Shown: in pieces, positions 3,373 to 24,201 of the stretch
Position numbering within the stretch: position 1 is the stretch's first letter
Layout of the letters: every line of letters starts with the position of its first letter
IMG/VR virus record: IMGVR_UViG_3300032516_005935
Location: 1 to 24,201 of that record
DNA: 24,201 bases
Source: a virus
Strand: one strand, 5' to 3'
The notes under the pieces: generated by a model
The model's database searches: none
Told to the model about the DNA's origin: nothing
Seen by the model: only the letters and a program-made list of their open reading frames with translations
Translations under genes and position numbers: made by a program

Positions 3373-4242
3373 ATGTTTTTTCAGAGGGAATATTCGCGGC
3401 GAGAGAGGGATGAGCTTGTTTTAGCGGCACTGAATACAGCAAGGGGAAGCGGCGAGTGGGTCAAGACCCATTGCCCGTTTTGTTCGACGGGCAGGAAGAG
3501 CCCATCGTTTGCAATCTCGAGAACTCACGGCGGGTTCAAATGCCATCGTTGCTCTATCAGCGGGATGCTCAAAGATTTTGAAGAAGATGCTGAGATTATC
3601 GAACAACCCAAAAGCGCTATGCAATTGCCCGATGAGTTTCTATCGCTCTCAGAGGAGCCTGGAAAGTCGGCATTCTCAACAAGTGCGGCGAGAGCTTATT
3701 TAGCTTGGCGAAATATTTCACCTAGTGTGATAAAGCAGGCTCATGTTGGGGCGTGCGTAGAGGGTCGATACAGAGGAAGAATCGTAGTTCCTGTTCTATC
3801 GGCTCGAGGCATTTTGCTTGGTTGGGTCAGTCGCGCATGGTCGAAGAAGGTTCAGAAAAAATATCTTTACCCCGTTGGTTCGTGGCGAGCATCGGCTCTA
3901 TTCAATGAGGCTGCACTGCTCGTGGAAACAGATGTTCCGCTGTTCGTTGTCGAGGGAGTTTTCGATGCTTTGGCTCTTTGGCCTAACGCTGTGGCTGTGC
4001 TTGGCAAGCCAAGTGTCATTCAGGAAAACATGCTTGCGCTCTCGAATCGACCCCTTGTCAGCGTGCTCGACGGCGACGCATGGCGAGAGGGAGAAGCGCT
4101 TTCGCTGAGATTGAGATTGACAGGCGCAACGGTTGGGGCGATTCGATTGCCGCCCAAGATCGACCCGGATGAAGTTTACCGGGAAGATTTGATGATGGCG
4201 GGCATAGAGTCGTTGTCGATGATGGAGGCAGTCGCATTTTGA
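3373..4242 (+). CDS. DnaG-type primase with zinc finger and TOPRIM domain
   Basis: This 289-residue protein has an N-terminal zinc-binding motif (C34, C37, C57, C60; CPFC and CHRC). It also has a TOPRIM core with the catalytic glutamate in FVVEGVFDAL (E194), the acidic motif VLDGD (D233, D235) and DPDEV (264-268). It would make RNA primers for lagging-strand synthesis with the upstream helicase. It is much shorter than bacterial DnaG (about 580) because no C-terminal helicase-binding domain is visible, as is common for compact phage primases. The start ATG 3373 is preceded by GGGGG at 3363-3367. Confidence 0.88.
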   Translation: MFFQREYSRRERDELVLAALNTARGSGEWVKTHCPFCSTGRKSPSFAISRTHGGFKCHRCSISGMLKDFEEDAEIIEQPKSAMQLPDEFLSLSEEPGKSAFSTSAARAYLAWRNISPSVIKQAHVGACVEGRYRGRIVVPVLSARGILLGWVSRAWSKKVQKKYLYPVGSWRASALFNEAALLVETDVPLFVVEGVFDALALWPNAVAVLGKPSVIQENMLALSNRPLVSVLDGDAWREGEALSLRLRLTGATVGAIRLPPKIDPDEVYREDLMMAGIESLSMMEAVAF

Positions 4243-14080: not shown

Positions 14081-14674
14081 ATGAGTTTGCGAATAGAAGG
14101 CTTGCCCATTGATGCGTTGCAAGACGCTCTTAAAAATCCAAAATTGCACAGCGATCAAATTGAAAACAGCATCGGTCGTTTTGGTTATGTTGAGCCGATT
14201 GTTTTAGATGAGCGAACGAATCGAATTGTAGCGGGGCACGGGCGAAAAGCCGCGCTGTTAAAATTGAAATCATCGGGAGGAACGCCACCCGCTGGTGTTG
14301 TCGTCAATGAAAATGGCGATTGGATCATCCCGGTTATTCGTGGCTGGTGGAGTAAGAATGACAAAGAGGCTGAAGCGTATTTGATTGCAAGCAATCGATT
14401 GGTTGAGCTCGGCGGTTGGGATGAAAAAGAACTTGCTTCGATGATGAGTGGTTTGCAAAGCGAAGATTTGTTGAGTGGCGTTGGCTACACGTCGAGTGAA
14501 GTCACTCACCTCTTGAGCGAAATAGAGCGTCAAAACTCGTTTGAAGGAATGTCAGAGCCTATTTTGAATTCTGTTTGGCAAATTGTTATTGATTGCTCTG
14601 ATGAGCCGGAACAAGAAAAATATTTGAATGAGTTTATCTCAAGGGGTTTGAAATGCCGCGCGCTCATATTGTAG
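14081..14674 (+). CDS. ParB-like (ParB/Srx fold) protein
   Basis: A 197-residue protein with the ParB N-terminal pattern: NPKLHSDQIENSIGRFGYVEPI then the GHGR box (AGHGRKAALL, 51-60). The C-terminal segment (EPEQEKYLNEFISRGLKCR) is like the ending of many phage ParB-like proteins often encoded beside DNA-modifying enzymes. No helix-turn-helix centromere-binding domain is visible, so plasmid partition is unlikely. A nuclease, nucleotidase or DNA-modification helper role is more likely. ATG 14081 has GGGGGA upstream. It overlaps the next gene by 22 bases. It looks more A/T-rich than the neighbours. Confidence 0.75.
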   Translation: MSLRIEGLPIDALQDALKNPKLHSDQIENSIGRFGYVEPIVLDERTNRIVAGHGRKAALLKLKSSGGTPPAGVVVNENGDWIIPVIRGWWSKNDKEAEAYLIASNRLVELGGWDEKELASMMSGLQSEDLLSGVGYTSSEVTHLLSEIERQNSFEGMSEPILNSVWQIVIDCSDEPEQEKYLNEFISRGLKCRALIL

Positions 14675-15777
14675 TCAGTTCTCCGATTGTTGTTACGTCA
14701 AAAGTTTTGCAATTGCGTGGCATATTTGATGTTCCTCCGAGCGAAAATGTTTCTTCAGAATGGGATGTTGATCTTCCACTCGACGAACGAACTTGGAATG
14801 TTGGTTTAATAGTGGGCCCAAGTGGCGCAGGCAAGACGACCATTGCACGTGAGTTATTCGCTGATGCGTTGATGAAGCCGTTTGAATGGGACAAAAACAA
14901 AGCGATTGTTGATTGTTTTGATAGTGAGTCGATTAAAGATGTCATTGAGCTTTTATCTTCAGTCGGTTTTTCTTCACCGCCTTCATGGCTGAAACCTTTT
15001 CACGTGCTGTCAAACGGAGAGCAATTCAGAGTTAATATTGCAAGAGCTCTTTCAGAAAATAAACAGTTGACAGTCGTCGATGAGTTCACGTCCGTTGTTG
15101 ATCGCACTGTCGCACAGATTGGCAGCGCCGCCATTGCGCGAACCGTGCGAAAGAGAAATCAACAGTTCATCGCGGCTACATGTCATTACGACGTGATCGA
15201 CTGGCTTCAACCGGATTGGGCATTCGAGCCGCATATAGGGAAGTTTTACTGGAGGGACCTTCAACGAAGACCAGCAATCAGTCTTGACATTAAGCGAGTC
15301 TCTCGTGAAGCGTGGGAAATATTCGCATCGCATCATTATTTGAGTCGTACGTTGACGAGATCTTCGAGGTGCTTTGTTGCGTTTTGGAATAATATGCCTG
15401 TTGCGTTTACGGCTGTGATTTATTTGCCGCACGCGACATTGAAAAACAGTTGGCGAGAGCATCGCACTGTTTGTCTTCCTGATTTTCAGGGCGTTGGTAT
15501 AGGCAACGCAATGAGCGACGCAATTGGTTCGCTGATACGCGGCCTTGAAGGGCGTTATTATTCTAGAACTTCTGCGCCGGGAATGATTGTCTCAAGAAGA
15601 AGAAGCAAGAATTGGAAGACAACCATCATTGGGCCTTGCTCTTTGCAGAGATCGGGGTCGACGAAAGTTGGGCAGGATTGGACGGCGGATCTTGTCAGAC
15701 AAACGGTTGGATTTGAATATGTAGGATCAAAGATGGATTCAAAACTTGCGTGGTCACTTTGGAATGAGAAAGTGTAG
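14653..15777 (+). CDS. ABC-ATPase fused to a GNAT acetyltransferase-like domain
   Basis: This 374-residue soluble fusion has an ABC ATPase half with Walker A GPSGAGKTT (55-63), signature LSNGEQFR (119-126), Walker B LTVVDEFTS (139-147) and H178. The second half is GNAT-like, with HHYLSR (227-232), REHRTVCLPDFQGVGIG (268-284; Q279-G-V-G-I-G is the acyl-CoA loop) and TSAPGMIVSRRRS. I recall similar fusions in phages and bacteria, often beside ParB-like genes; their substrate is not established. There are no membrane segments, so it is not a transporter. DNA modification or anti-restriction is the leading guess. AAGGGG precedes ATG 14653, within the ParB-like gene. Confidence 0.8.
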   Translation: MPRAHIVVSSPIVVTSKVLQLRGIFDVPPSENVSSEWDVDLPLDERTWNVGLIVGPSGAGKTTIARELFADALMKPFEWDKNKAIVDCFDSESIKDVIELLSSVGFSSPPSWLKPFHVLSNGEQFRVNIARALSENKQLTVVDEFTSVVDRTVAQIGSAAIARTVRKRNQQFIAATCHYDVIDWLQPDWAFEPHIGKFYWRDLQRRPAISLDIKRVSREAWEIFASHHYLSRTLTRSSRCFVAFWNNMPVAFTAVIYLPHATLKNSWREHRTVCLPDFQGVGIGNAMSDAIGSLIRGLEGRYYSRTSAPGMIVSRRRSKNWKTTIIGPCSLQRSGSTKVGQDWTADLVRQTVGFEYVGSKMDSKLAWSLWNEKV

Positions 15778-23453: not shown

Positions 23454-24074
23454 ATGGGAAGAGAAATCTATCGGGTGCCTCTTGATTTCAATTGGCCTTT
23501 GCGCAAAGTGTGGCAAGGCTTTCTGAATCCGTACTGGAAGCAATGCGCGCATTGTGGCGGCACAGGCGCAACGGCGGGCGACCGCTGGTTCAATAAATGG
23601 TTGGAAGAGTTTCAGATATCGGCGACCAACCCCACGGATGCCAATAGAAACGCACGCGCAAAAGAACTCCATGAGTTATTCGTCGCGTTATCGGGCGAGC
23701 CCAAAGGAGTGGTACTTCTAGAATGGGGACAGACGTTCAGTCTCAAACAAAAACTCCTCGAGATAGCAGGTCTCCCCGGTTGGGGAAGGTGCACCGCCTG
23801 TGATAGTACGGGCATCGATGCCGCGGTCAAAGCAAAGTACGAAGCGTGGGAGGAAGAGTTGCCGCCCGAGGGTGAGGGGTATCAGCTCTGGGAAACGGTA
23901 AGCGAAGGCTCGCCCATCTCGCCGGTATTTCCGACGAAGGAAACGTTTGTCGACTATCTCGTCACGCAAGGTTACTCGAGAGAGGCGGCGTTGAATTTCG
24001 TCGAGCATGGATGGGCTCCCACGATGATGGTGAGAGACGGAATGGTTTTGAAAGACATCGAGTCATGTCGATGA
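23454..24074 (+). CDS. Phage-type hypothetical protein with Cys-pair zinc motifs
   Basis: A 206-residue product of a type I know from phage genomes. The opening YRVPLDFNWPLRKVWQGFLNPY is characteristic, followed by CAHCGGTG and, after a helical insert, CTACDSTG; the four cysteines look like a DnaJ-like zinc finger split by about 80 residues. Function in that group is not established. The start is set by leader 23426-23438 and AAGGGAG. The CRISPR-like repeat begins at the base after its stop codon. Confidence 0.8.
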   Translation: MGREIYRVPLDFNWPLRKVWQGFLNPYWKQCAHCGGTGATAGDRWFNKWLEEFQISATNPTDANRNARAKELHELFVALSGEPKGVVLLEWGQTFSLKQKLLEIAGLPGWGRCTACDSTGIDAAVKAKYEAWEEELPPEGEGYQLWETVSEGSPISPVFPTKETFVDYLVTQGYSREAALNFVEHGWAPTMMVRDGMVLKDIESCR

Positions 24075-24164
24075 TGTTTCCCCGCACACGCGGGGCTGAA
24101 CCGACCGCGGGCATGGTGCTCAGTTGGGTCTATCAGTATTCCCCGCACGCGCGGGGCAAAAGAA
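24075..24164 (+). CRISPR. Type I-E-like mini-array: two repeats, one 32-base spacer
   Basis: Repeat 1 (24075-24103) has the core TTCCCCGCACACGCGGGG and the ending TGAACCG, close to the type I-E repeat known in many bacteria. Repeat 2 (24136-24164) shares TTCCCCGCAC-CGCGGGGC with one change and diverges at its 3' end (AAAAGAA), as terminal repeats often do. The two CCCC blocks start 61 bases apart (24080 and 24141), exactly 29 + 32, the type I-E period. Each repeat folds as CCCCGC/GCGGGG. No cas gene is in the window. It could also be two stray hairpins. Confidence 0.5.
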
Positions 24165-24201
24165 AATGCCGCCCGACCTCCTCAGAAAAGATCGAGCGGC
24201 A
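24157..24201 (-). terminator. Terminator for a minus-strand transcript from the right
   Basis: TGCCGCCCGA (24167-24176) pairs with TCGAGCGGCA (24192-24201) with a single C-A mismatch. Read on the minus strand the hairpin is followed by TTTTCTTTTG, a normal rho-independent layout. It implies a convergent gene beyond the right edge. The T-run overlaps the diverged end of CRISPR-like repeat 2. Confidence 0.6.

Follow-up and report, generated by a model that had tools for sequence, protein, structure and literature searches.

The window analysed here is a viral IMG/VR record of 24.2 kb (24,201 nt) with a short repeat array at its extreme end. Phage genes surround the array. Products of the window include a family A DNA polymerase, a DnaB-like helicase, RecA and an SbcD-like phosphoesterase, and genes for terminase, portal and major head proteins are present in the sister contig G001. 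An ORF at 14653–15777 is matched in part by the PADLOC model mad3 (E = 2e-11, over residues 103–178) and by further ATPase models; its product joins an ABC-type ATPase region to a C-terminal region of a different kind. The array consists of two repeats and one spacer (Table 1) and lies directly downstream of a 206-aa ORF that has no significant match in Pfam, PHROGs or PADLOC.

Table 1. Features of the array locus and of the variable DNA in two sister contigs (positions in the window unless a contig is named)
Feature	Position	Strand	Details
206-aa ORF directly upstream of the array	23454–24074	+	function not assigned by profile searches
Repeat 1, type I-E	24075–24103	+	TGTTTCCCCGCACACGCGGGGCTGAACCG, 29 nt
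Repeat 1, hairpin part	24075–24095	+	21 nt
crRNA 5' handle in repeat 1	24096–24103	+	CTGAACCG, 8 nt
Spacer (allele A)	24104–24135	+	ACCGCGGGCATGGTGCTCAGTTGGGTCTATCA, 32 nt
Repeat 2, terminal	24136–24164	+	GTATTCCCCGCACGCGCGGGGCAAAAGAA
Repeat 2, hairpin part, retained	24136–24156	+	
Repeat 2, last 8 nt, diverged	24157–24164	+	CAAAAGAA
Intrinsic-terminator-like hairpin	24157–24201	-	stem 24167–24201; T-rich tail enters repeat 2
Variable segment separating the 206-aa gene from repeat 1	L003 5622–5847; L004 5628–6307		

The stop codon of the 206-aa ORF (24072–24074) is followed, at the very next base, by the first base of repeat 1, and the two repeats recur on the plus strand with a period of 61 nt. 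Repeats of ∼29 nt, the I-E hairpin, the 8-nt handle and the 61-nt period identify the array as type I-E, and the combination of one spacer and a host-type repeat on a viral contig, free of the cas genes tested for, is that of a virus-borne mini-array. Cas1, Cas6e and Cas7e were found neither in the window nor in its relatives G001, G002 and G003, records that may be incomplete. Within the window the hairpin pattern is confined to the array locus (three strand matches at two places), and dinucleotide shuffles of the window contained a mean of 0.12 matches, with 0 of 100 reaching three. An Rfam scan of the array locus returned no match. The earlier note, made from the bare sequence, had described two repeats with the I-E core at an exact 61-base period, beginning just past a stop codon and unaccompanied by cas genes; the coordinates it gave were right, and all three points were confirmed, the last for the three Cas proteins named, in the window and the three relatives.

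The final 127 bases of the window are also the first 127 bases of another record, L012 (IMGVR_UViG_3300032516_002767). A shared end of such length is typical of an assembler branch point, so that L012 is probably the continuation of the window, and the contig break probably represents a branch of the assembly graph exactly at repeat 1, as a k-mer reading would suggest. The branch would sit where the upstream sequence varies. The array itself is not a product of assembly, because a separately assembled contig, L023 (JAUQYW010000373.1), which has the same spacer and an identity of 97% to the window across 2.36 kb, reads across the junction and leaves it intact. L023, nearly identical to the window, has been assigned to a genome bin of ∼7.8 Mb labelled ‘Candidatus Sigynarchaeota’; Sigynarchaeota, considered as host from this label, were rejected, a misbinned phage contig being likelier.

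Comparison with sister phages reveals that the spacer has been replaced between repeats that are conserved. All 29 nt of repeat 1 are invariant in the window, L023, L003, L004 and L012. L003 and L004 are ∼98% identical to the window in the upstream gene. Their right flank and their repeat 2, counted from its fourth base onwards, do not differ from those of the window, whereas the spacers are TGCCCATTGATCTGTCTGTTGACTTATCTCA and GGGTGTTCAAGAATTTCGACGAGCATTTCTTC, respectively, against ACCGCGGGCATGGTGCTCAGTTGGGTCTATCA in the window. Ungapped, the three spacers agree at 6–8 of ∼31 positions, which is the level of shuffled sequence. The sister spacers measure 31 and 32 nt and that of the window 32 nt, with a period of 60–61 nt among the relatives; in a type I-E array, too, conserved repeats flank spacers that are each unique and nearly constant in length. 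The DNA that separates the 206-aa gene from repeat 1 varies as well: there is none in the window, ∼0.2 kb in L003 and ∼0.7 kb, with an ORF, in L004. The two longer versions close with a similar 20-odd bases, which suggests that the window version is a deletion. No tRNA was found by a scan of this variable cargo, and a tRNA-Sec-like match in L003 lies far below threshold; the variable DNA of L003 does hold tRNA-like T-arm sequences, which neither ARAGORN nor Rfam accepted as a tRNA. The spacer was probably swapped between lineages by recombination at the repeats, along with the variable DNA just upstream. Variation that is fixed in length and free in sequence between conserved repeats is more in keeping with a guide RNA than with a repeat decoy. 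The locus would then represent a clear type I-E slot in a phage, where the guide is swapped between near-identical phages and the repeats and surroundings stay fixed.

Repeat 2 departs from repeat 1 only past base 21, that is, right after the hairpin. In type I-E systems, Cas6e cuts the repeat at the boundary between the hairpin and the 8-nt tail. This cut precedes the diverged tail, and the divergence of repeat 2 would therefore leave the crRNA of this spacer unaffected. Many IMG/VR contigs with similar repeats carry arrays of this shape with one or two spacers. When 34 distinct viral repeat pairs are compared, mismatches affect 33% of positions in the last 8 nt and 1–5% of those in the stems; since the similarity of the stems is partly imposed by the search pattern and some of the contigs may contain longer arrays or host DNA, it is the contrast between stem and tail alone that is informative. 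A conserved hairpin with a free tail in the last repeat provides a simple rule for spotting one-spacer phage arrays, which standard array finders may miss.

No leader or conserved promoter precedes repeat 1, the upstream sequence differing between alleles, and the leader with promoter that is typical of full chromosomal arrays is absent from the phage array. A promoter-like match at 24048–24075 is weak (9/12), and its sequence is missing from the sister alleles. It is likely that the array transcript originates from read-through transcription of the 206-aa ORF. The terminator-like hairpin to the right, of which L012 holds a longer copy, has no T run after its stem on the plus strand; on the minus strand it would halt transcription arriving from the right. 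In the predicted minimum-energy fold, repeats 1 and 2 pair with each other instead of forming two local hairpins.

The repeat is also found in cellular genomes. Its 26-nt core, TTCCCCGCACACGCGGGGCTGAACCG, is present in 15 stretches from assemblies of cellular genomes, among them the phage contig L023. Most come from Hyphomicrobium and other Alphaproteobacteria, and several are chromosomal arrays with 8 to 112 exact copies. Cas6e is encoded in 10 of 12 carrier assemblies tested (9 above the curated cut-off), a set that includes the bin holding L023. A comparison of 309 spacers from the retrieved arrays with the window phage group yielded no convincing match, the best (∼19 nt with one mismatch) being at the chance level for 309 spacers.

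No protospacer for the window spacer (A) or for spacers B and C was found in any collection searched. Spacer A had no match in the INPHARED phages, only weak matches to plasmids (E about 3 to 9) and none, at up to three mismatches, in 103 genomes of the Hyphomicrobium-type family; spacer B matched phages over 16–21 nt only (E of 3 or more), and codon-degenerate searches of IMG/VR with spacers A and C returned only the arrays themselves. Two candidates were judged to be chance: spacer B agrees with L093 (IMG/VR) at 22 of 31 bases with CAT adjoining, and spacer C is 87% identical over 30 nt to a T4-like gp47 gene, but with E = 3, in antisense and with TTG adjoining. Many targets may be unsequenced. 

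We consider it likely that the locus is a leaderless, phage-borne type I-E mini-CRISPR with one spacer that uses the Cascade of its host, probably against rival elements. On this model, the plus-strand transcript would be cut by Cas6e of the infected host after the hairpin of each repeat, which would free one complete crRNA consisting of CUGAACCG, the 32-nt spacer and the 21-nt repeat hairpin. The crRNA would be loaded into host Cascade and guide it to matching DNA, most likely that of a competing phage or other mobile element. Borrowing of host CRISPR machinery by phages is a known strategy, which is probably encountered here in a new phage group. The earlier note had left two branches, a mini-CRISPR or a decoy acting as RNA anti-CRISPR, and had taken the diverged second repeat for an array end or a decoy. 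The mini-CRISPR branch is now supported by the core shared with host arrays, the 60–61 nt period and the lineage-specific spacers, and the decoy branch is less favoured; the reading of repeat 2 as an array end holds, its divergence starting right after the hairpin as in other viral mini-arrays. Three observations had been named there as speaking against the proposal. One of them, the lack of a spacer match in phage and plasmid databases, came true. The other two did not: instead of there being no I-E repeat match in any plausible host, a search of cellular genomes located the 26-nt core, exact, in arrays of Cas6e-encoding genomes, and instead of a hairpin conserved with variable spacing, the related phages retain the period.

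If the locus were an RNA anti-CRISPR (Racr), its repeats would be mimics that tie up Cas6e or Cas7 in dead complexes, and the intervening sequence would be irrelevant. Solitary repeat units in phages, including RacrIE1 and RacrIE2, are known to act in this way, type I-E among them (PMC10651486), and both the divergence of repeat 2 and the want of a known protospacer for the window array are compatible with such a role. However, the locus has two repeats rather than one, at the exact CRISPR spacing (61 nt; 60–61 nt in the sisters), the intervening stretch stays at 31–32 nt though its sequence is fully replaced, and repeat 2 retains exactly the portion needed to complete a crRNA. Since a decoy could do without a second repeat and without a variable spacer of constrained length, we regard this explanation as unlikely. 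Highly improbable, in our view, is an origin as hairpins or terminators that look like CRISPR repeats by chance, or as a dead remnant of a host array; the adjoining minus-strand terminator-like hairpin and the fact that no target is known would agree with it, but the handle CTGAACCG and the period match type I-E, repeat 1 stays the same in lineages that differ in their spacers, and shuffling fails to yield the pattern.

Alternatively, the spacer may resemble the guide of a CreA-like regulator, in which seed-only pairing of the crRNA to a promoter or gene start lets Cascade repress phage or host genes without cleavage. CreA guides repress their targets with seeds at bases 1–5 and 7–11 plus a PAM (PMC8501985). 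In favour is the mini-array of an unrelated phage, L015 (IMGVR_UViG_3300025018_000023, 3706–3930), a 47.5-kb contig with terminase and head genes nearby and no proteins in common with the window's phage group. This array is located 5' of a gene for a collagen-like lipoprotein on the strand opposite to that of the structural genes nearby; the initial 14 bases of its first spacer, with AAG, match the antisense of the lipoprotein start codon region ∼180 nt downstream; a 14-nt match was reached by 0 of 5000 shuffles of the spacer. The L015 array thus resembles a device by which a phage accessory gene is controlled through a CRISPR guide, but the window spacer has no comparable seed match, and L015 is therefore a lead and not an explanation of the window array. 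In the sister phage G001 (L032, 9917), the first 11 bases of spacer B match the phage's own ParB-like gene, but GCT adjoins the site and the match is close to the chance level (about 0.02 expected). Spacers A, B and C lack a beyond-chance match with an AAG or ATG motif in the available parts of their own genomes, and CreA-like regulation is accordingly rated quite improbable for the window array. A broader version, in which the array is a gene-control device not aimed at rivals but a programmable repressor of the phage's own or host genes through host Cascade, seems very unlikely to us; if true, phage expression would depend on the host having an active CRISPR system, and one-spacer I-E arrays would be so used by this and unrelated phage groups.

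Other self-matching spacers were observed. The spacer GGTTGCTCATGGTGTTTTCCTTTGGTTGGTGG of L044 (965 and 2489; also in L042, L047, L058 and L059) matches a site elsewhere in its own contig at 32 of 32 bases; the site adjoins TGA, and its other strand resembles a ribosome-binding site followed by ATG. In L052 (reverse strand, 1819 and 2215), 31 of the 32 bases of a spacer recur ∼400 nt away in the same contig, next to ACG.

Among known systems, the mini-CRISPR proposed here shares with Racr the presence, in a phage that has no cas genes, of a repeat resembling that of the host, and differs from these solitary repeats in having two repeats and an exact 32-nt spacer that is swapped between lineages. 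It is similar to the CreA guides of CreTA in being a minimal two-repeat array with diverged repeats (PMC8501985); unlike CreTA, no toxin RNA was recognised and the window phage has no PAM-bearing seed match to an adjacent gene, a search for the seed of spacer A with a PAM at the promoter of the adjacent gene giving no match in the window, L012 or L023. The chromosomal I-E arrays of Hyphomicrobium and others that carry the CTGAACCG handle have the identical 26-nt core and a ∼61-nt period, whereas the phage array has a single spacer, a phage location and neither leader nor cas genes. In comparison with the mini-arrays of SPV1 and SPV2 (Sulfolobales portogloboviruses), the window array is of type I-E, resides on tailed-phage contigs and lacks a leader, and no protospacer was found in a sister phage; leaderless mini-arrays have been described in phages (PMC6858448). 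Like those of SPV1, SPV2 and phages, it combines one or two spacers with host-type repeats and no cas genes. Viral mini-arrays are known for spacers that target related viruses and for variation among close relatives (PMC6858448, PMC11656645), and here, too, closely related viruses have different spacers in one and the same slot.
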